From Sphingomicrobium clamense (lineage in GTDB: Bacteria > Pseudomonadota > Alphaproteobacteria > Sphingomonadales > Sphingomonadaceae), in assembly GCF_019264355.1 (NCBI RefSeq), contig NZ_JAHVAH010000001.1, positions 62,001-126,000 of the forward strand: a stretch of 64,000 bases of DNA, given 5' to 3'. The position numbers and the translations under genes are program-made. Below, in pieces: positions 4,926 to 50,958 of the stretch. The first letter of the stretch is position 1. Every line of letters starts with the position of its first letter. The notes under the pieces were generated by a model that saw nothing but the letters and a program-made list of their open reading frames with translations, had not been told where the DNA came from and searched no databases.

Positions 4926-6317
4926 CTAACGCGAGTAGCGCACCAGCAAACGGTGGCCGTCGACCAGCCGCAACTCGTCGACGATTCGGCCCCGCTTTTC
5001 GATCGCCGCGCGGAAATCCTCTTCGGTATAATCGTCGAAAATATCCTCGCGCATCGCCAGCAGTGTCTTGACCATATTGTCCTGCTTGTCGGGGAACTCG
5101 ATGATCCCGTCAGGCGCCATGTCCATCAGCCAGCCCACCACCTCGTCGAGCGGCACGTTGCGGCCGATGGCGATGTGGTGAACGACCGCCAACGCGACCA
5201 TCGCGTCGCCCCGCACGCGACGGGCAAACCCCTCACGCTCGCGCTCCGCCCAGCCCTGATCGGGCGACGGGTTGGCGGCGTCGAGCCAGATCGGCGTGAA
5301 GGCGAGCTTTTCCTGTTCGGCTCGGCTCACCGCGAGGTTCAGCGCATTATGGTCGAAGTCGAAGCCGATGACGCGGCTCGCGCCTGCCTCGAGCGCGGCC
5401 ACCGAATAGTCGCCGCTATTGCAGCCGATATCGAAGGTCAGGCCCTTGGTATCGGCGGCGAGCTTGCCGATGAAGTCAGCCTTCTGCTGCTGTTCGTCCG
5501 AGGAATAGCTGGTATTGTCGGCATATTCGCCCCAGACGCTTTCGCCCCCGGGCGGCTGCAAGCCTTCGATATAGGCTTTCAGTCCTTCGAGGATCGCGAC
5601 GAAACGTGCCTTGGGCAGCTTCGCCTTCTCCTTGGCGGCGCGCGCTTCGGCGGGCGTCGTCGCAAGCCGCTTTTTCTGGAGCGCGGCGAGGCCGACGACA
5701 TGAGCGAGCACGACCGGCGACCATTTGGCTTTCCACGGCAGCATCTTGGCGAGGTCTTCGGGCGCAATGCCTTCGAGGGCGCCGCGCATCCAATGGTTGG
5801 GCGCGATGCCGACCTTGTCCCATAGGAGGAGCGGGCCGAGGAACTGGCTGACGAACTGGTAGTGGCCGACCCATGCCTCGCCTTCTTCATAGGGCTGGAT
5901 CGACAGATGGTCGATGAAGCGCGGGGTCACGCCATCGAACTGGATGTTGTAGGCGGTCGCATCGGACAGGGTGAAGCCGTCCTTCAAAGCCTCGAGATGC
6001 ACGCGAAGCTGCGTGATCGCTGCCTTCTTCCAGAGTGCGAATGGCCATTCGTAGGGATGCGAGATAAAGGGCAGCGTGGGATGTTCGAGCCAATAGGCGA
6101 CATCGTCACAGGCGAGCGCTGCGGGGGCCTCGACTTCCTTGAGCCCGACCAGCAGGCCCTTCTTGACCAGCCGGCCGTAGAGCCCGGCATCGCGCGCGGC
6201 CTCATAGGCCGCGGCGGCGGCGCCTTTGGTTACTGAACGAAGGATGCGCCCTTCGTGGCGATACACCTGCCCTGCCCGGTCACGGAATGAACCGGCCACG
6301 CGCCCCCCGTCAGTCAT
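4926..6317 (-). CDS. Class I SAM-dependent methyltransferase with N-terminal extension
   Basis: A 463-residue protein. The C-terminal half carries a Rossmann-type SAM-binding motif 'FDIGCNSGDYS' followed by 'RVIGFDFDHNAL', typical of class I methyltransferases. The N-terminal ~270 residues ('HEGRILRSV', 'HPYEWPFALWKKAA', 'DHLSIQPYEEGEAWVGH') resemble a region found in methyltransferases of polysaccharide or nodulation neighbourhoods. The substrate is not evident. It lies 12 bp downstream of the small exported-protein gene and in the same direction as the sulfatase-like gene, which suggests a shared role in surface-polymer metabolism; that role is inference. Confidence 0.8.
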   Translation of the reverse strand: MTDGGRVAGSFRDRAGQVYRHEGRILRSVTKGAAAAAYEAARDAGLYGRLVKKGLLVGLKEVEAPAALACDDVAYWLEHPTLPFISHPYEWPFALWKKAAITQLRVHLEALKDGFTLSDATAYNIQFDGVTPRFIDHLSIQPYEEGEAWVGHYQFVSQFLGPLLLWDKVGIAPNHWMRGALEGIAPEDLAKMLPWKAKWSPVVLAHVVGLAALQKKRLATTPAEARAAKEKAKLPKARFVAILEGLKAYIEGLQPPGGESVWGEYADNTSYSSDEQQQKADFIGKLAADTKGLTFDIGCNSGDYSVAALEAGASRVIGFDFDHNALNLAVSRAEQEKLAFTPIWLDAANPSPDQGWAEREREGFARRVRGDAMVALAVVHHIAIGRNVPLDEVVGWLMDMAPDGIIEFPDKQDNMVKTLLAMREDIFDDYTEEDFRAAIEKRGRIVDELRLVDGHRLLVRYSR

Positions 6318-6329
6318 GCTTGGAATTCC

Positions 6330-6572
6330 TTACTTGGTCTCGGCTTCAGGTTCGGCCTCGAGCGTTTCGTCGATCTCTAGCTCGGGCTGCTTGATGCCGA
6401 ACAGGCCCTTCACCCAGCCGATCGCGCGACGCGAATAGAGGCCCCAGGCCGCGAAGAAGCCGATGATCGCCTGCAGTGCGATGCTTGCAGTGGCGCCATC
6501 GAGATAGGCATGCGCCGGGGCGGTCATCGAAATCAGGATCGCCACCGCAGCGGCCTTACGCAAAATGGTCAT
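6330..6572 (-). CDS. Small exported/membrane protein of the YLD-LLQ type
   Basis: An 80-residue protein with a cleavable signal peptide ending near 'APAHA', then 'YLDGATASIALQAIIG', one hydrophobic segment (about residues 30-50), a basic stretch and an acidic tail. The motif after the signal resembles the YLDPGTGS-LLQ motif of short proteins often found beside surface-polysaccharide and sulfatase-like genes in alphaproteobacteria; here Pro-Gly is replaced by Gly-Ala. It is 12 bp upstream of the methyltransferase on the same strand, so the two are probably co-transcribed. Function is unknown. Confidence 0.7.
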   Translation of the reverse strand: MTILRKAAAVAILISMTAPAHAYLDGATASIALQAIIGFFAAWGLYSRRAIGWVKGLFGIKQPELEIDETLEAEPEAETK

Positions 6573-6648
6573 GGTCGAATTGTCCCCATTGGTTGACTGT
6601 CGCTCTTCCTGCTAGCGGCCAATTCTTAGCAATTTGATAACCACGAAC

Positions 6649-8253
6649 TCACTGCCAGTCCAATGCGATCGGCGCGAATGTCCGTCCGTCCGGGTCGGGT
6701 GGTTCCAGCAAGGTCGGCGGAACGCCTTCGGGTTCGTGCGGCACTTGCGCCTGTCCGGCGTCGGTTCCTTCCAAGAGCTCGGCAAGGCTTGCCGGCCCTT
6801 TCATTCGCCCAGGAGCGGGCGTCTGGAGCTTCACCGCGAACAAGGTGGAGCCCGCGTGGAGCCATTGCGCCTCGCTGCCCTGGTCCATGCCCCAACGCGC
6901 CATTTCCCTACCCAGGCGCGAGCCATGGTCGCCATTGACGATCATCACATAATTGCCGCCCGAAGCCGCGTCGGCCGCATCCGCCACCCGACCGATCAGG
7001 CCGGTGACACAGCGCACCTGTGCGACATAGGCGGCGGCGCGCGTTTCCTCGGACGAAGATTGCCACGCCGTCTGCCATCCCGTCACCGGTGTCGTCTTGC
7101 AGTCCTCATCGTGGCTGTAGGGGAAGTGCGGGGCCAGCACATGTGCGACAATCGCATCACCCGGCCCCTTATCCTTCACGACGTCGGCAACGCGTTCCAG
7201 CTCGTGCACCGAATTGATCGTGTTGGCCTCCCCGCGATGCTTGAGCGGCGCATGCACCGAAATTTCGCCGGTCAGGAAGTTCCCGTCGATGATATTCTCG
7301 ATCACGCCCGAATAGACCAGCGCCAGCACCAGCTGCCGACCGATATGGATAAAGATCAGGCGCGCGCGGTCACCGGTCGAAACCTCCGCTTCGCGTATCC
7401 CTTGCAAATTCTCGCGCCAGTAGGTGCGGCACGACTGCACCTCGTTCCCCTCGCATAGATCGACGAATGACGACTGCACCACATCGATGTCATAGCCGGC
7501 CGCGCGCAGGTCGGAGAACCAGCGGGTCGCGCCGGTCACCCCGCCGACATCGCTATTGCCGAAGGACTCGCCGAGCTCCCCATAGTTGAGGAACATCGGG
7601 ATCGACGTCACCGAGTGATAATATTGCGTATGCGCATCGTCGTAGACGGTGAAGCCATGCTCCATCAGCGATGCGGCCATCGCCTCGCCCTCGCCTTCAT
7701 GCCCCGGCATCGCGTCAAGCCCGCGCACGCCCTCGAACTCGTCGAGGATCAGGTGGACGAGCAGCGGTGGCTCCTCAGCCACCTCCACGGGCGCCAGCTC
7801 CCGCTCCACCGTCTCGATCCGCTCCGCATCCTGCCCGAGCCCGAGCAGGCTGGTCATCCCGATCACCGCGAACGCGACCGTCACCAGCCGGAAAAAATCG
7901 ACCCCCATGCGATAGGTGAACAGCAGCCCCGCGACCCCGGCCACGAACGGCCAGTCGATCGACGCCATGTTCCAGTCCGCCAGCAGCAGCGCCAGGAACC
8001 CGCCCAACGCCACCTTGATCGAGAAGCGCACGTCGGCCAGCACGATTGCAAACAGCAGCGCGCAGGCCATCAGGATGACCCACACGATCCCGACTTCGGG
8101 CACCAGGATCGGATAGGAATGGAACAGCAGGATGTTGAGCAGGCTGGCCGTCAGCCCAACCCCCATCGCGCCCAGGCCCCAGATGAACCATTCGCGCTTG
8201 CTACCCCGATCACGACCAGGCGCACGCCGCGCCGTCTCCCCCGACTTACTCAT
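6649..8253 (-). CDS. Membrane-anchored sulfatase / alkaline-phosphatase superfamily protein
   Basis: Hydrophobic N-terminal segments (roughly the first 150 residues) precede an extracytoplasmic domain. That domain has features of the alkaline phosphatase/sulfatase fold seen in LtaS- and OpgE-like phosphotransferases: 'VHLILDEFEGV' near its start, 'VAHVLAPHFPYSHD' and 'IVNGDHGSRLG' as metal-site motifs. It probably acts at the periplasmic face on a surface glycan or lipid. The longest frame starts at 8289; I chose the ATG at 8253 (MSKSGE...), but no clear ribosome site separates the choices. It heads the run with the small YLD-type protein and the methyltransferase. Confidence 0.75.
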   Translation of the reverse strand: MSKSGETARRAPGRDRGSKREWFIWGLGAMGVGLTASLLNILLFHSYPILVPEVGIVWVILMACALLFAIVLADVRFSIKVALGGFLALLLADWNMASIDWPFVAGVAGLLFTYRMGVDFFRLVTVAFAVIGMTSLLGLGQDAERIETVERELAPVEVAEEPPLLVHLILDEFEGVRGLDAMPGHEGEGEAMAASLMEHGFTVYDDAHTQYYHSVTSIPMFLNYGELGESFGNSDVGGVTGATRWFSDLRAAGYDIDVVQSSFVDLCEGNEVQSCRTYWRENLQGIREAEVSTGDRARLIFIHIGRQLVLALVYSGVIENIIDGNFLTGEISVHAPLKHRGEANTINSVHELERVADVVKDKGPGDAIVAHVLAPHFPYSHDEDCKTTPVTGWQTAWQSSSEETRAAAYVAQVRCVTGLIGRVADAADAASGGNYVMIVNGDHGSRLGREMARWGMDQGSEAQWLHAGSTLFAVKLQTPAPGRMKGPASLAELLEGTDAGQAQVPHEPEGVPPTLLEPPDPDGRTFAPIALDWQ

Positions 8254-19682: not shown

Positions 19683-19808
19683 ATGAAAGTACGTAACTCG
19701 CTGAAATCGCTGAAGTCGCGCCATCGCGATTGCCGGGTCATCCGTCGTCGCGGTCGCACTTACGTGATCAACAAGACCAACCGTCGCTTCAAGGCGCGCC
19801 AGGGCTAA
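19683..19808 (+). CDS. rpmJ: 50S ribosomal protein L36
   Basis: A 41-residue very basic protein: it starts '[17 protein letters not shown]', followed by '[19 protein letters not shown]'. This is the ribosomal L36 form with an incomplete zinc-binding Cys set (the single Cys is in 'HRDC'), as in the YkgO/type B group found in alphaproteobacteria. It is too short for common ORF cut-offs. A rho-independent terminator follows closely. Confidence 0.93.
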
Positions 19809-19870: not shown

Positions 19871-20761
19871 CTATTGGGCGAGGTGCTGCTCGAGCAGGAC
19901 GAGCGCATCCTCGGCGCGGCCGAAATCGAAGAGACGGGAAAAGCGATAGACCTCGCACGTCCGGGCAAGGTCGAGGCAGCGCTCGAACCCCCAATCATCG
20001 CCGCCATGCCAGAGCGATGCGGCGGCCCAGCGATAGGCGTTGTCGACCACCAGCGCCCCCGCCTCGGCGCCTCGCACGCGATCGATCGCCGGCCCCGTTG
20101 CCGACTGTTCGAGCAAATAGATGCGTCGTAGCGGAAGGCGCTCTGGCGCGGCGGGATTGACTGAAAGCGGCATCTGATACTTGTCCGCGCGGGCGATGAC
20201 CGGGTCGAGATCGGCCGCCGAGATACCCAAGTGATCGAGCGTTTCGCGCCATAGCTTGATTCTTGGCACGCCGCGATCGACCATCGGGGTGCCGCTTGCC
20301 CCATCGATTGCAAGCAGGTCGTCGCAAAACATGTCATAACCTCGCCGCTCGAGCATGGCGGCGAGCGTCGACTTGCCCGCGCCGCTGGGTCCGGCAAAGG
20401 CGGCGAGGCCCTTGCCATTGGGCAGGACCACGGCATTTGCGTGGAGCGCGAGGCGCCCGCGTTGAACCAGCAGCGTCCCCAGTACCTGCCCCGTCAGCCA
20501 GCCGGTGACGAGCCCCATATCGATGCCGCGAGGCGCGGTAATGTCGATGCGATTCCCTTCGGCCACCAGATAGCGAATCCCGTCGAGCTGCATGTCGAAG
20601 ACGCGGTCGTCGCGAAGCGCATTCTCCCAATTGCCGAAGGCGACTTCGTCGGGGGCGTATTCGAAGGTGACCTGCGCGTCAGCCTTGCCCGGCGCCTCGG
20701 CAAGGCTGGGAATGGCGATCTGGCTGTCGATCGTGAGCCCGAAGACGCGGTAGGTCGGCAT
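19871..20761 (-). CDS. HprK-like lasso-peptide kinase
   Basis: A 296-residue protein with an HPr-kinase-like C-terminal half: 'HANAVV' (residues 108-113), Walker A 'GPSGAGKST' (124-132) and 'FCDDLLAID' (145-153). The N-terminal third is the small beta domain seen in these stand-alone kinases. HprK-like kinases in lasso clusters of the paeninodin type phosphorylate the C-terminal Ser of the precursor; the precursor encoded 2.1 kb away ends in Ser, which fits. The gene is divergent from the B1-D-A-C-B2 run, with only 48 bp between the start codons. The link to the lasso cluster is inferred from context and the C-terminal Ser. Confidence 0.85.
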   Translation of the reverse strand: MPTYRVFGLTIDSQIAIPSLAEAPGKADAQVTFEYAPDEVAFGNWENALRDDRVFDMQLDGIRYLVAEGNRIDITAPRGIDMGLVTGWLTGQVLGTLLVQRGRLALHANAVVLPNGKGLAAFAGPSGAGKSTLAAMLERRGYDMFCDDLLAIDGASGTPMVDRGVPRIKLWRETLDHLGISAADLDPVIARADKYQMPLSVNPAAPERLPLRRIYLLEQSATGPAIDRVRGAEAGALVVDNAYRWAAASLWHGGDDWGFERCLDLARTCEVYRFSRLFDFGRAEDALVLLEQHLAQ

Positions 20762-20809
20762 GGCTCACTTCTTGCGCGAACCGCCCTGCCCGCGCTAGCC
20801 CCTTGCGTC

Positions 20810-21097
20810 ATGGCCGATCCGCTTCCCGACACACTCCTCCTCGTCCAGACCCGGCGCATGCCGACGGGCGAGATCGATGGCGAGCTGATGGCGCTCGACG
20901 CCGCCGCGGGCGACGTACTGGGGCTCGACGTTATCGGCACGCAGCTATGGGGACTTGCGAAAGAGCCGGTCACGCTCGGGGCGATGATCGACTGGGCCTT
21001 GCAGCACTACGACGTGGCGCGCGAAGCGGCCGAGACGGATATCCGCCGCTTCGTCGGCGACTTGCTCGACGCCGGCTTGCTCGAGCGGGCGCAATGA
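20810..21097 (+). CDS. PqqD-family RiPP recognition protein (lasso B1)
   Basis: A 95-residue protein of the PqqD/RRE fold: 'GELMALDAAAGDVLGLDVIGTQLW' (family pattern: strand, then D--AG----L---G--IW) and the C-terminal winged-helix part 'YDVAREAAETDIRRFVGDLL'. In lasso systems with a split B protein, B1 binds the precursor leader and delivers it to the B2 protease. The ATG has no good ribosome site and lies 48 bp from the kinase start, so the message may be leaderless or nearly so. It overlaps the exporter gene by 4 bp (ATGA). Confidence 0.88.
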   Translation: MADPLPDTLLLVQTRRMPTGEIDGELMALDAAAGDVLGLDVIGTQLWGLAKEPVTLGAMIDWALQHYDVAREAAETDIRRFVGDLLDAGLLERAQ

Positions 21098-22782
21098 TCC
21101 TCACGCCTCCGGCGGCACGCGTCTTTGCGGACCTTGCGAAGTGGGGAGGCGCGCGCCTGTGGGTGCTGTTCGGCCTCATGATCGTCGCGGGCCTGAGCGA
21201 AGTGGTGGGGATCCTCCTGCTCGTGCCGCTGGTGTCGGTCGCCGATGACAGCGTCGACTGGTGCGGCACGCTGGGCATCGCCGATCCGCTTGCCGGACTT
21301 TCGCCGACCGGTCGCTTGCTGGTCGTGGTCGCCGCCTTTGTCGGCGTGATGGCCTTGCGTGCGCTACTTTCAATGGCGCGCGAAAAGCGTCAGGCAGAGC
21401 TCGACCTTGGATATGAGCAGTCGCTCCGCTCGCGCTTGCTCCAAGGCGTGGTCGCACGCGGGTGGAGCCGTGGAGCGACGATGGGCGAATCTTCGCTCCA
21501 GACCCTGCTGATCGCGGAGACGACGCGCGCAAGCGCGGCCGCGCAGCCGGGGCTGGTGATCATCACGTCGGCGGCGCTGCTCGCGATCCAGGGTCTCGCC
21601 GCCCTTCTGATTTCGCCGAGATTGACGCTGGTCGCGGTGGGCGCCGTGGGCCTGTTGATGCTGGTGGGAATACCGCTGGCGCGATCGAGCCATCGCAAGG
21701 GGGCGGCGATCGGCGTTGCGCACGAGCAGAGCGGCGATCAGAGCGGGAAACTGATCCAGGGCCTGAAAACGGCGAGCGCGGAAGGGCGCACCGGTTCCTA
21801 TCTTGCGAGGTGGCGGAAGAGCGATCACGCCCTGTTCGACGATCAACGCGCCGTCGCGATGCAGGCCGCGCGCATGCGCACGAGCCTCACCTTCCTCCTC
21901 GCCCTGTTTGCCGCGCTCCTGCTGCTCGTGGGACGGATTGCTTTCGACGTTCCGCTGGTGATCTTGTTGCCGCTGCTCGTGCTGCTGGCGAGGCTGGCGA
22001 TTCCAGCGCGGCAGATCGTCAATGCCACGCAATCGATGGCTGCGTACGCGCCCGCCTTCGATCGGCTTGCTCCCCATATGTCCGCCTCTGCGGCGGAGGC
22101 GCCCGAGAACGGGTCGCCGGCGCCGCTACGCTGGACTCGGCTCAGCGCAGAGCGGCTGTCGTACCGGTCGAGCGAAGCGTTCGGGCTGGGGCCGGTCGAT
22201 TTCGAGATTATGGCGGGCGAGCGGGTCGGGCTGACGGGCGCGACAGGGAGCGGCAAGACCAGCCTGATCGACTGTCTCGCGGGATTGCATCGCCCCGATG
22301 GCGGCAAGATCCTGATCGACGGGTCGCCGGTTGATCTGATCGCCAACCCGGGCTGGGCAGCGCAGCTTTCCTATGTCGGGCAAGGTGAGGCGCTCTACGG
22401 TGGCAGCCTGAGCGAATTGATGAATCTCGAAGCGTCGCCGACCGATGAAGGCGAGCGACGTCTCATCCTCGAAATTACCGGCGTCGAGCGGATCGCCGCC
22501 GGGTTATCGGACGGGCTTGACACCGCGCTCGGCCATCGCGCGAGCCTCTTGTCAGGCGGCGAGGCGGCGCGTGTGGCCATCGCGCGAGGCCTGCTTCGCC
22601 GACCTTCGCTTCTGATCCTGGACGAGGCGACCGCTGCGCTCGATGTCGAGAGCGAAGCGGACTTGTTCGCCGGAATGGGGCGCTTGTCCTGGCGGCCGGC
22701 CATTTTGATGGTGGCGCACCGACCGCAGTCGCTCGGCCACATGGACCGTGTCGCGACGATGGAAGCGGGTCGGCTTCGGTAG
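21094..22782 (+). CDS. ABC exporter, fused membrane and ATPase domains (lasso D)
   Basis: A 562-residue half-transporter. About six membrane segments lie in residues 15-320 and an ATP-binding domain follows: Walker A 'GATGSGKT' (382-389), signature 'LLSGGEAARVAIARGLL' and Walker B 'LLILDEATAALD'. It most likely exports the mature lasso peptide across the inner membrane and so may provide self-immunity. The start codon overlaps the stop of the PqqD gene, so the two are translationally coupled. The gap to the precursor gene is 97 bp, enough for an internal promoter. Confidence 0.9.
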   Translation: MILTPPAARVFADLAKWGGARLWVLFGLMIVAGLSEVVGILLLVPLVSVADDSVDWCGTLGIADPLAGLSPTGRLLVVVAAFVGVMALRALLSMAREKRQAELDLGYEQSLRSRLLQGVVARGWSRGATMGESSLQTLLIAETTRASAAAQPGLVIITSAALLAIQGLAALLISPRLTLVAVGAVGLLMLVGIPLARSSHRKGAAIGVAHEQSGDQSGKLIQGLKTASAEGRTGSYLARWRKSDHALFDDQRAVAMQAARMRTSLTFLLALFAALLLLVGRIAFDVPLVILLPLLVLLARLAIPARQIVNATQSMAAYAPAFDRLAPHMSASAAEAPENGSPAPLRWTRLSAERLSYRSSEAFGLGPVDFEIMAGERVGLTGATGSGKTSLIDCLAGLHRPDGGKILIDGSPVDLIANPGWAAQLSYVGQGEALYGGSLSELMNLEASPTDEGERRLILEITGVERIAAGLSDGLDTALGHRASLLSGGEAARVAIARGLLRRPSLLILDEATAALDVESEADLFAGMGRLSWRPAILMVAHRPQSLGHMDRVATMEAGRLR

Positions 22783-22879
22783 GGCGACCATCCGCTGGCG
22801 GCAGCAACGCGGGTAGACTTTGAGCTAACCGGAAGTTAAGCAAAACCACCTAGAAGCTTGTGTTTTCAGGAAGTTCAGC

Positions 22880-23017
22880 GTGACCAAGTTGCCGAATCAA
22901 GACCGACAGAATTGGACTGCGCCCAAGCTGCGCCGTCTTTCCGCCAAGAATGCCTTGATGCCGGGCGGCACGTCCGGCGAAGAAGGCGTCAGCGGGAAAA
23001 GGAGAACGTTCAGCTAG
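22880..23017 (+). CDS. Lasso-peptide precursor (A), 45 residues
   Basis: The gene starts with a GTG at 22880, 8 bp after an AGGA ribosome site, and ends with TAG at 23015-23017. The leader contains 'WTAPKLRRLSAKNAL', with the P-x-L-type motif recognised by RRE proteins, and the chain ends '...KRRTFS'. A plausible core is GGTSGEEGVSGKRRTFS: Gly1 would close a 7-residue ring onto Glu7, as in xanthomonin-type rings. Starts at Met27 or Leu26 (ring on Glu34 or Glu35) are possible alternatives. The usual Thr two residues before the core is absent. The C-terminal Ser is the expected target of the HprK-like kinase. It lies 13 bp before the cyclase gene and 97 bp after the exporter. Confidence 0.82.
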   Translation: MTKLPNQDRQNWTAPKLRRLSAKNALMPGGTSGEEGVSGKRRTFS

Positions 23018-23030
23018 TTCGAGCCATGAT

Positions 23031-24758
23031 GTGAGAACGCTGACCACGGATCTAAAAACCAATTGGCCTGTTGGCCAAGCATCCCCGTCCTGGGTTGACG
23101 GCGGACCGGCGAGTGTCGCGATCGACGGGAATATCGTCAATTATCGGGACGTGGCCCGAGCGATTGGCTTGAGGGGTGATGAGCCTCTCACGCTTATTCT
23201 ATCTGAACTGATCTCCCGGCGCGGACTGTCAGGCCTCGGTCAACTTCGTGGCAGCTTTGCCGCGATGATTTGGGAAAACGAGAGGCTGACCCTAGTACGG
23301 GACCCAGCTGGCAGAAGACCTTTGTTTTACCGGATCGATGATGGCGGACTTCGTGTCGCCACCGAGCCCCTGCATTTGCATGTTGCTGGCCGTGGGATCC
23401 AGCATCGCTGGCTGGTGCGCAGACTGCTGCTGCTGCCAGAGCGCGATGACATCACCGCGTTCGGCGAGGTCAGAAGGGTGATGCCTGGAGAAGCGCTTTG
23501 CTTCGAGGCTCCGTCATGGCCTGCTTCGCGGACGCGGTGGGCGCCGCAATTTGAGAGCATCATTCACATGTCGACTGACGAAGCGGCGGATCGGGCGACC
23601 GCACTGCTCGACGTGGCCATCGCGCGCATCGGCGACGGAAGGGAACGGTTGGCCAGTCAGCTTTCATCGGGGCTCGACAGCGCAATCCTGCTTTCGCGGC
23701 TGACTGCGCACGACAATCTTAAAGTGGATTGGTACACCGCCTCACCGGGTGGACACTTGCCACCGGACCTGCCTGTCGACGACGAGTGGGAAGCTGCTCG
23801 GCAGCATGCGGCCGCATTGGATGCCGTCCCACGCCGGGTTAGCGGCCCTCCCAGCGGACTTAGCGATGGGGCGGCCTATTTCTCTCGATCGCACGCACCC
23901 ATTCTTAACTATTGGAATTTGGGTTGGATGGAGAGCCTGGTTGAATCCGCAGCGGATGACGGCCATGACGTGATGATTGAAGGCCTTGTCGGGAACGAAA
24001 CCTTGACCTTTGCCGGACACGGGCCGCTGGCAGCGCGCGCTGCAGGACGGCATTGGGTGCAGTTCGTATGGGAGGCCTTGAAATCGCGCGGAAAGGGTAC
24101 CCGTACCGCGCTTCGGCGAGACCTGCCTGCACCTTGGCGTCAAATCCGATCACGGGCAGCACAAGACGAGTTCGTCGGATCGCTCTACCTAAACAGGAGT
24201 TCGGAAGCTCTCCAATCCTCGATGGCTGACGAGCGTCGCCTGGGGAAGGCACCGGAATCGGTCGATTCGATCGACGATCCGCGCGCTCGATATTTCGAAC
24301 ATTTGTTTCATCAGGACGATGCTCTTTACCGCCGCTATCTGCGCGGGAAGTACGGCGTCGAACTCCACGATCCATTCGCCGACCCCGATGTGATGGACTT
24401 CGCGTTTCGCCTGGCTCCGGAAGCCTTCGGAGCGAGCGGCAGTCGCGCTCTTGGTTTTGCGATGATCGACGATCGGATCGATCCGGTGTCGGTGCATGAA
24501 GGCGCGCGCGCCTCGCAAGGCGACCATTGGATCGTAGCAGCGCGGAGTGGTGTCGCTCTTGCGAGAGACATTCTGGAATGGGCCGCAAGCACCGACGGGA
24601 TTGCGGATCTGGTCGACACCCAAAGACTAAAAAGAGAGGTCGACAGTCTCGCGAGCGGGCACTCAGGCGCCGAATTCTGCCCCGACCGATTCCGGAACGG
24701 TGCGCTGAGAACGTTGGGCACGCTCGCATTTGCTCGCTGGGTCGAAGAGGCCGCATGA
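23031..24758 (+). CDS. Asparagine-synthetase-like lasso cyclase (C)
   Basis: A 575-residue protein starting at a GTG. The N-terminal half is a glutaminase-like fold without the nucleophilic Cys ('GQLRGSFAAMIW', 'LTLVRDPAGRRPLFY'). The C-terminal half is an ATP pyrophosphatase with 'SSGLDS' at 212-217 in place of SGGxDS. Lasso C enzymes adenylate the core acidic side chain and join it to the new N-terminus. Asn synthetase itself is unlikely given the missing Cys and the neighbouring B1, B2, D and precursor genes. Base composition is visibly lower in G+C than in flanking housekeeping genes, suggesting transfer. It overlaps B2 by 4 bp. Confidence 0.9.
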   Translation: MRTLTTDLKTNWPVGQASPSWVDGGPASVAIDGNIVNYRDVARAIGLRGDEPLTLILSELISRRGLSGLGQLRGSFAAMIWENERLTLVRDPAGRRPLFYRIDDGGLRVATEPLHLHVAGRGIQHRWLVRRLLLLPERDDITAFGEVRRVMPGEALCFEAPSWPASRTRWAPQFESIIHMSTDEAADRATALLDVAIARIGDGRERLASQLSSGLDSAILLSRLTAHDNLKVDWYTASPGGHLPPDLPVDDEWEAARQHAAALDAVPRRVSGPPSGLSDGAAYFSRSHAPILNYWNLGWMESLVESAADDGHDVMIEGLVGNETLTFAGHGPLAARAAGRHWVQFVWEALKSRGKGTRTALRRDLPAPWRQIRSRAAQDEFVGSLYLNRSSEALQSSMADERRLGKAPESVDSIDDPRARYFEHLFHQDDALYRRYLRGKYGVELHDPFADPDVMDFAFRLAPEAFGASGSRALGFAMIDDRIDPVSVHEGARASQGDHWIVAARSGVALARDILEWAASTDGIADLVDTQRLKREVDSLASGHSGAEFCPDRFRNGALRTLGTLAFARWVEEAA

Positions 24759-25153
24759 CCCGCCCGGGCCCGAAGATCCTGACCGAGACCCTGCTGGCGC
24801 TGACATGGGCGACCGCGCGGCTACGGCTGCAATCTTTCGAAAGTGTGATGGCGGCGCTGCCGGTCCGGAGCACGCCTGGCGGCGCGATCGCCAGCGATGA
24901 CGCCGCACAACTTAGCCGTGCCTTCAAGGCGTGGGATCGCCGCCTGCCGTTTCGAACCAAATGTTTCGAGCAGGGCTTGGCGGCGATGGCGATCCTGCGC
25001 CGACGCGGACATGAAGCCACGCTCCACTATGGAGCGCGCGGGGCAGGAGACGCACTGGAGGCACATGTCTGGGTGACGTCGGGCGATGTGCCGGTCGTGG
25101 GCTGCGAGAATACTTCGGAATTTCGCGAATTGGCGCGATATCCGGCGGAATAG
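24755..25153 (+). CDS. Lasso leader peptidase, transglutaminase-like (B2)
   Basis: A 132-residue protein of the McjB C-terminal family, which cuts the leader from the precursor. The catalytic Cys is in 'RTKCFEQGLAAM' (Cys70), 'LRRRGHEATLHYG' is the family's central motif, and the catalytic His is in 'EAHVWV' (His104). The third triad residue, usually an Asp about 12 residues after the His, is a Gly here; Asp111 or Glu118 may substitute, or the triad may be weak. The gene overlaps the end of the cyclase gene by 4 bp (ATGA), so it is translationally coupled. Confidence 0.9.
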   Translation: MTRPGPKILTETLLALTWATARLRLQSFESVMAALPVRSTPGGAIASDDAAQLSRAFKAWDRRLPFRTKCFEQGLAAMAILRRRGHEATLHYGARGAGDALEAHVWVTSGDVPVVGCENTSEFRELARYPAE

Positions 25154-25208
25154 TGCACTTTCTCGCTTCATCGGCGGTTCAGTGACCGACGTGCATATTC
25201 TTGCGACT

Positions 25209-25481
25209 ATGAAGACGAAGACTCTTTTCCTGCTCGGCGGCATGGCCGCGCTGGTCGCGCTGAGCGCGGGCCAGGCGAATGCGCAGGATCGGTCGAAGAC
25301 GCCCAAGAATTGGGACTATGAGATCGTCGATGGCAAGCGCGTGCCCAAGGCCAAGCGTCAGGTGAACGACGACGGCAGCTGGCGCGAAGAGCGCCGCACC
25401 GGCGATTGCGTCGAAGTGAAAGAGCGTAGCGCGTCGGGCGAGATCAAGATCACCCGCACCTGCGACAACAAGCCCGACTAG
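25209..25481 (+). CDS. Small exported protein, unknown function
   Basis: A 90-residue protein from the ATG at 25209. A signal peptide ends near 'AGQANA'; the mature part is short and charged ('DYEIVDGKRVPKAKRQVND', 'WREERRTGDCVEVKERS') with two Cys that could form a disulfide. I do not recognise the family. It lies 55 bp downstream of the lasso B2 gene in the same direction, but its base use matches the ordinary chromosome, so membership of the lasso cluster is doubtful. It converges with the lipoprotein gene, overlapping by 4 bp. Confidence 0.6.
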   Translation: MKTKTLFLLGGMAALVALSAGQANAQDRSKTPKNWDYEIVDGKRVPKAKRQVNDDGSWREERRTGDCVEVKERSASGEIKITRTCDNKPD

Positions 25482-50867: not shown

Positions 50868-50958
50868 GGAGCGGTGGCCGAGTGGTCGAAGGCGCACGCC
50901 TGGAAAGTGTGTATACGGTAACCCCGTATCGTGGGTTCGAATCCCACCCGCTCCGCCA
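50868..50958 (+). tRNA. tRNA-Ser (anticodon GGA)
   Basis: A 91-nt serine tRNA with CCA encoded. The acceptor stem pairs GGAGCGG with CCGCTCC, the anticodon loop is CTGGAAA, there is a long variable arm (stem around TATACGGTAACCCCGTAT), and the T arm is 'GTGGGTTCGAATCCCAC'. Its 3' end is the attachment site for the downstream island, which starts inside the T arm/acceptor region. Confidence 0.97.

Follow-up and report, generated by a model that had tools for sequence, protein, structure and literature searches.

The window analysed here is a 64,000-nucleotide stretch of the Sphingomicrobium clamense genome (contig NZ_JAHVAH010000001.1, positions 62,001 to 126,000), and our subject is a set of six genes at positions 19871-25153 of this window that, by its gene content, is a complete kinase-type lasso peptide cluster. 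The kinase gene K lies on the reverse strand and is followed on the forward strand by B1, D, A, C and B2, with all six frames open and 4-base overlaps between B1 and D and between C and B2 (Table 1). An earlier note made from the letters alone had proposed this order on one strand with a kinase diverging across 48 bp, and the frame coordinates confirm it. Most likely, the six-gene set makes a knotted, phosphorylated peptide. Clusters of the kinase type are already known, as in Sphingobium yanoikuyae and for paeninodin, and the lineage described here is unusual in its leader, in the pocket of its B1 protein and in its core.

Table 1. Features of the cluster and its flanks (window positions; aa, amino acids; RiPP, ribosomally synthesized and post-translationally modified peptide; ABC, ATP-binding cassette).
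Feature	Positions	Strand	Basis
K: HprK-like peptide kinase, 296 aa	19871..20761	-	AlphaFold model, fold matches, conserved residues
K/B1 divergent intergenic region, 48 bp between starts	20762..20809	.	coordinates of K and B1
B1: PqqD-like RiPP recognition element, 95 aa	20810..21097	+	PF05402; TbiB1 and PbaB1 alignments
D: ABC exporter, permease and ATPase, 562 aa	21094..22782	+	PF00005; clade of cluster exporters
A: whole precursor frame, GTG start	22880..23017	+	
A: leader part, 26 aa, W12-x-x-P15-x-L17, predicted Ala(-2) Leu(-1)	22880..22957	+	precursor comparison, 15 others and second lineage
A: predicted core MPGGTSGEEGVSGKRRTFS, 19 aa; predicted ring Met1-Glu9 (or Glu8), C-terminal Ser19	22958..23014	+	register argument
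A: stop codon	23015-23017	+	
C: asparagine-synthetase-like macrolactam cyclase, 575 aa, GTG start, SSGLDS motif	23031..24758	+	PF13537, PF00733
B2: transglutaminase-like leader peptidase, 132 aa, Cys70 and His104	24755..25153	+	NF033537, PF13471
rpmJ (ribosomal protein L36), left flank marker	19683..19808	+	90-100% identical copies in 67/71 genus genomes
Small protein gene, 91 aa, right flank marker, outside the pathway	25206..25481	+	101-502 bp after rpmJ in 45 loci without lasso match

Enzyme families of the cluster

B2 scored 67.6 bits against the NCBIfam lasso model NF033537 (curated cut-off 33) and 74.9 bits against Transglut_core3 (PF13471; cut-off 26), and its Cys70 and His104 are common to all ten aligned sequences. 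The PqqD family (PF05402) matched B1 with 43.7 bits (gathering score 23.4), and this protein also aligns to TbiB1 (5v1u; E 3.4e-7) and to PbaB1 (9x90), as expected of a RiPP recognition element (RRE). C matched both GATase_7 (PF13537; 42.2 bits, cut-off 25) and Asn_synthase (PF00733; 27.5 bits, cut-off 21); its residues G214, D216 and S217 are invariant among ten aligned sequences with at most one gap, and the SxGxDS loop pattern is present in eight of these ten rows, all but L039 and L044. The exporter D scored 89.1 bits against PF00005 (cut-off 25). Together with Glu8 and Glu9 in the predicted core of A, the locus thus holds a lasso-family B2, an RRE and an asparagine-synthetase-like C.

The AlphaFold model of K (mean predicted local distance difference test, pLDDT, of 90.8) matched PEPCK (E 1.4e-7) and HprK/P 3tqf (E 1.2e-5) in Foldseek, and H107, K130, D147 and D148 are invariant in ten of ten relatives; we read these as the residues of the His-Lys-Asp-Asp motif of lasso kinases that is named in PMC9266682. 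A first scan of the genome contigs with the single K sequence returned no relatives. In the kinase tree, the ten kinases from the genomic site described below form one clade (support 99/97), those of a second kinase-type lineage another (20 rows, 16 from the genus; 97/87) and those of Bacillota a separate one (ten rows; 100/98).

The lasso-type assignment of the earlier note, including its exporter-plus-kinase subtype, is thus borne out by the family matches of B1, B2 and C, the HprK/PEPCK fold of K and the precursor features, namely an acid at core position 8 or 9 and a C-terminal Ser. The lack of lasso-type matches for B1, B2 and C that it had named as a possible refutation did not occur. 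The split B protein that it had singled out is indeed present as B1 and B2, and such a split is usual in the kinase type as described in PMC10368454. It had further distinguished the cluster from the sphingomonad lasso type with an isopeptidase and a TonB receptor. No TonB-receptor or isopeptidase-type domain was found in ten long open reading frames (ORFs) scanned with Pfam (out of 20 ORFs of at least 430 amino acids) or in eight proteins in and next to the cluster, so that the mark of that type is absent from the ORFs scanned, which are part of those in the window.

Distribution at the rpmJ site

The source genome (2.2 Mb in four contigs) has one B2 match. We searched 71 genomes of the genus and found a lasso B2 match in 48 of them, one being the fragment in G001. 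A precursor profile (A1) matched 15 genomes at E 0.01, ten of them strongly (<1e-12), with the profile itself built from nine of these ten. The gene rpmJ was found in 67 of the 71 genomes (four had no rpmJ match), and in ten genomes the cluster lies between rpmJ and the small flank gene, with K divergent in all of them. The earlier note had suggested looking for the same genes in related genomes, and nine further Sphingomicrobium genomes share this gene order, though it is split over two contigs in G003. Since this layout is common to all ten clusters at the rpmJ site, the divergent kinase is a lineage trait; the earlier note was right that the layout is real, and its unusual character is not peculiar to the source genome. 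The genes, their families, their conserved motifs and the conserved locus are direct observations.

At the rpmJ site of other genomes, we found an exporter only in five, fragments in two and no lasso match in 45, where the flank gene follows rpmJ directly at the distance given in Table 1, while five could not be judged. The fragments are a piece of B2 (L094 in G001) and broken pieces of K and B2 (L054 in G006), i.e., decayed remnants of the cluster. The lone exporters (L108, L109, L120, L123 and L125; matched length 545-552 amino acids) form a clade with support 100/100 that is nested in a 16-row clade (99/99), whose other rows are the exporters of the ten clusters and L151 (a copy of L034). 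They are most simply explained as leftovers of the same locus, though the exporter may also have arrived there first. All five of these genomes have a B2 match elsewhere, so the lone exporter may be retained immunity or have been re-used.

Some observations lie beside these patterns. The L035 copy of the cluster has an extra ORF of ca. 380 amino acids between D and A that by eye resembles the nucleotidyltransferases of phosphoglycosylated lasso clusters. Two precursors of the same family are encoded at a satellite locus in G058 (L093:5539-6030 and 6039-7202), where an ORF on the other strand likewise resembles a nucleotidyltransferase by eye; since no other lasso enzyme matched within the 13 kb of L093, these precursors would work in trans. 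A plasmid search with B2 gave one match, from Azospirillum. Elsewhere in the window, a tRNA gene at 50868-50955 is the only Rfam match at the gathering threshold.

Precursor family and leader register

We read 16 precursors of the lineage. The window, L032, L035, L039, L044 and L100 hold a single one, and L033, L036, L037, L038 and the satellite L093 hold two apiece. Positions are counted from the conserved leader Trp. All 16 carry W-x-x-P (Pro at position 4) and all have Ala at position 14, as do the database proteins P0008, P0009, P0011 and P0012. Position 15 is Arg in 11 of 16, Thr in two and Leu, Gly and Gln in one each; position 16 is Met in 15 and Asn in one; and position 17 is Pro in ten, Gly in three, Ser in two and Ala in one. 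Glu is found at position 24 in 14 precursors and at position 23 in the remaining two; the precursor of the window has it at both. The last residue is Ser in 14 of 16, window included. All named database relatives of the precursor (five of 13 matches) are called hypothetical proteins, and a search of the PDB with the precursor profile gave chance-level matches only.

Two comparisons help to place the leader cut. The first is with a second kinase-type lasso lineage (16 of loci L041-L067 plus L152, L166, L169 and L196), in which leaders end in Ala-Glu and cores are short and polar. Its 20 precursors are the full set of W-type candidates (16) at loci of the genus that do not belong to the rpmJ lineage, plus four (L152, L166, L169 and L196) that were chosen for Ala-Glu, with spurious-looking frames dropped by eye. 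The 16 genus candidates have Ala at position 14 and Glu at position 15, followed by Ala, Ser, Asn, Val or Phe at position 16. Since candidates were listed only if they ended in Ser or Thr and had an acid 7-9 residues into the core, these two traits carry no meaning in this group. The other comparison is with kinase-type candidates of Bacillota, which have Thr at position 14, one spurious frame (L171) aside. As the leader Trp of PbaA is at -15 (PMC13381572), position 14 is the -2 site, and we therefore place the cut before Met; the core would then begin with position 16, and the ring acid would be Glu9 in 14 precursors and Glu8 in two, so that all 16 have it at core residue 8 or 9.

In this preferred register, the usual Thr(-2) is not found: all 16 precursors have Ala(-2), and in a register shifted by one residue the window precursor would have Leu. 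Thr(-2) was once taken to be general, until a Bradymonas cluster was shown to have Ile(-2); for other clusters, Ile, Val and Ala have been predicted (according to PMC10368454). As to the first residue, a paper of 2025 presents Asn1 as new and names Gly, Cys, Ser and Ala among those already known (PMC12670498). In the open-licence papers searched, we found no report of Met1 or Pro1 as first ring residue, and the combination of Sphingomicrobium and lasso peptide returned only a list of new names. Leu and Trp are also known as first residues of lasso peptides.

The B1 pocket and the -2 residue

A tyrosine of the RRE, Tyr33 in FusE, may contact Thr(-2), as suspected in PMC10368454, and the Y38A variant of PadeB1 binds the leader with little or no cleavage (PMC5067487). 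We take FusE Tyr33, PadeB1 Tyr38 and PbaB1 Tyr38 to be one position. By alignment with PbaB1, B1 of the window has Val there, and the ten aligned B1 proteins of the lineage have Val in five and Cys in five. Across all genus loci in which B1 was found, the residue is Cys in 20 and Val in six (26 of 26). B1 was found at 16 of the 20 second-lineage loci, each time with Cys or Val; at 65 loci outside the genus, it is Tyr in 55, Cys in four, Phe in four, Ile in one and Ala in one. Pairing the -2 residue with this position by locus gave Thr with Tyr 13 times, Ala with Cys or Val 25 times, Ala with Tyr five times, Ala with Ile once, other pairs six times and Thr with Cys or Val never, in a table that was filled by hand, left out Tyr-type leaders and counts related loci whose events are not independent. 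A strict rule that would pair Tyr38 with Thr(-2) and the absence of this Tyr with Ala(-2) was rejected, as it holds in one direction only, with Ala(-2) beside Tyr at five loci. Within the rpmJ lineage, Val or Cys in B1 does not track the precursor form that reads A-T-M.

Proposed pathway and alternative explanations

We consider it likely that the locus encodes a complete kinase-type lasso peptide pathway with the following steps, whose order we infer. B1 would bind the W-x-x-P-x-L part of the leader, and K would add phosphate to Ser19 at the C-terminus of the still linear precursor, perhaps repeatedly and perhaps with the help of B1. The C-terminal Ser is the target of lasso kinases of both Bacillota and proteobacteria (PMC8498205). 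B2 would then cleave after Leu26, leaving Ala as the penultimate leader residue and Met1 to open the core, and C would activate Glu9 (less likely Glu8) and join it to the amine of Met1. The predicted product has a 9-residue ring and a 10-residue tail, presumably threaded like other lasso peptides, and D would export it and protect the producer. More tentatively, and as a rather unlikely version of this pathway, the lineage with its Ala(-2) cut and Met1 ring would mostly lack an aromatic or His stopper, and a (poly)phosphate placed on Ser before cyclization would itself be the stopper, giving phosphorylation a structural role.

Several results weigh against the proposed pathway or parts of it. 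C scores only 40.3 with the lasso cyclase model NF033535 (cut-off 525), K remains below the curated cut-offs of HprK_rel_B and HprK_rel_A (36.3 and 29.3 against 200) and of Hpr_kinase_C (14.6 against 33.3), and precursor A matched none of the NCBIfam and Pfam families scanned. Five sequences (L039, L044, P0008, P0009 and P0012) read A-T-M-G-G, so a core starting one residue later would give them the classical Thr(-2) Met(-1) Gly1 Glu8; moreover, position 15 with its frequent Arg is far from random, unlike a free -1 site. Finally, aromatic and His residues are missing from most tails of the family, and this speaks against ordinary threading.

Because of the A-T-M-G-G forms and the frequent Arg at position 15, we retain a cut after Met as a rival, by which the window core would begin with Pro1 and close a Pro1-Glu8 ring, the secondary amine of Pro1 making the isopeptide bond a tertiary amide. 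Met(-1) after Thr(-2) also occurs in several Bacillota candidates. However, this register would put the mixed columns 15 and 17 at the -2 site and at residue 1, both less conserved than their counterparts in the preferred register, and would move the leader Trp to -16 instead of the -15 of PbaA and of the second lineage as interpreted here; we therefore regard it as unlikely. Very unlikely, in our view, is phosphorylation by K at Thr5 or Ser6 of the ring instead of the C-terminal Ser. The Bradymonas kinase BsfK does target Ser3 (PMC10368454), but 13 aligned precursors show no invariant Ser or Thr column in the ring, and the C-terminal Ser is shared by nearly all lineage precursors (see above), whereas BsfA ends in Asp. 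That the cluster is decaying and yields no product in the source genome would fit the fragments and lone exporters at the rpmJ site of other genomes, but with six open frames and the catalytic residues kept in the window, we give this next to no credence.

A doubtful alternative that nevertheless carries some weight is a branched-cyclic macrolactam whose tail, for want of a stopper, is not stably threaded, i.e., a lariat and not a true lasso. Phe, Trp, Tyr or His occurs in the tail of only four of the 16 lineage precursors; in a three-group comparison, such tails were found in 4/15 of the lineage, 2/20 of the second lineage and 19/22 Thr(-2) precursors (Fisher p 2.8e-7; Tyr-type leaders L160 and L168 excluded from the last group), with the reservation that the rows are related and that median tail lengths of 13, 9 and 15 explain part of the difference. 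The shortest cores, moreover, have only 13 to 16 residues. Against a lariat, every one of the 16 lineage tails contains Lys or Arg, as do 14 of 20 second-lineage tails, the window tail itself carries Lys14, Arg15, Arg16 and Phe18, and B2 belongs to a lasso family. Seven of the 16 cores have two cysteines, for which a disulfide is possible from the sequence; the window core has none. The threaded, C-terminally phosphorylated product with Met1 as first residue remains our preferred reading.

Relation to known systems and significance

The putative cluster of Sphingobium yanoikuyae ATCC 51230 (SyanK, SyanB2), which we compared by description only, is likewise from a sphingomonad and of the kinase type, and SyanK polyphosphorylates its precursor on the last residue, a Ser (PMC8498205, PMC9266682). 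With the paeninodin family of Bacillota (PadeA, PbaA), the lineage shares the W-x-x-P leader, a discrete RRE, B2, C, an HprK-like kinase and the C-terminal Ser, as described in PMC13381572, PMC5067487 and PMC9266682. The paeninodin family differs in having Thr at position 14, Tyr at the B1 Tyr38 position, mostly aromatic or His-bearing tails and kinases that fall into the separate Bacillota clade. The Bradymonas bsf cluster is also of the kinase type and also departs from Thr(-2), but it has Ile(-2), phosphorylation at Ser3 and a precursor ending in Asp (PMC10368454). Metanodin shares an unusual first ring residue, though this is Asn1 with Thr two residues upstream (PMC12670498). New in the present lineage are Ala(-2) and Met1 as placed by the preferred register, Val or Cys at the B1 tyrosine position and the scarcity of aromatic or His residues in the tails.

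Genome mining keyed to Thr(-2) could overlook such precursors, and the replacement of Thr(-2) by Ala(-2), along with the change of the B1 tyrosine, offers a natural experiment on the specificity of the leader peptidase. PMC9266682 counts the phosphorylation of lasso peptides among those modifications whose role has yet to be explained. With few bulky residues and a conserved C-terminal Ser, the cores of this lineage would make a clean test of phosphate-dependent threading, and the most interesting question that they raise is whether C-terminal phosphorylation can serve as the stopper in peptides that otherwise have none.

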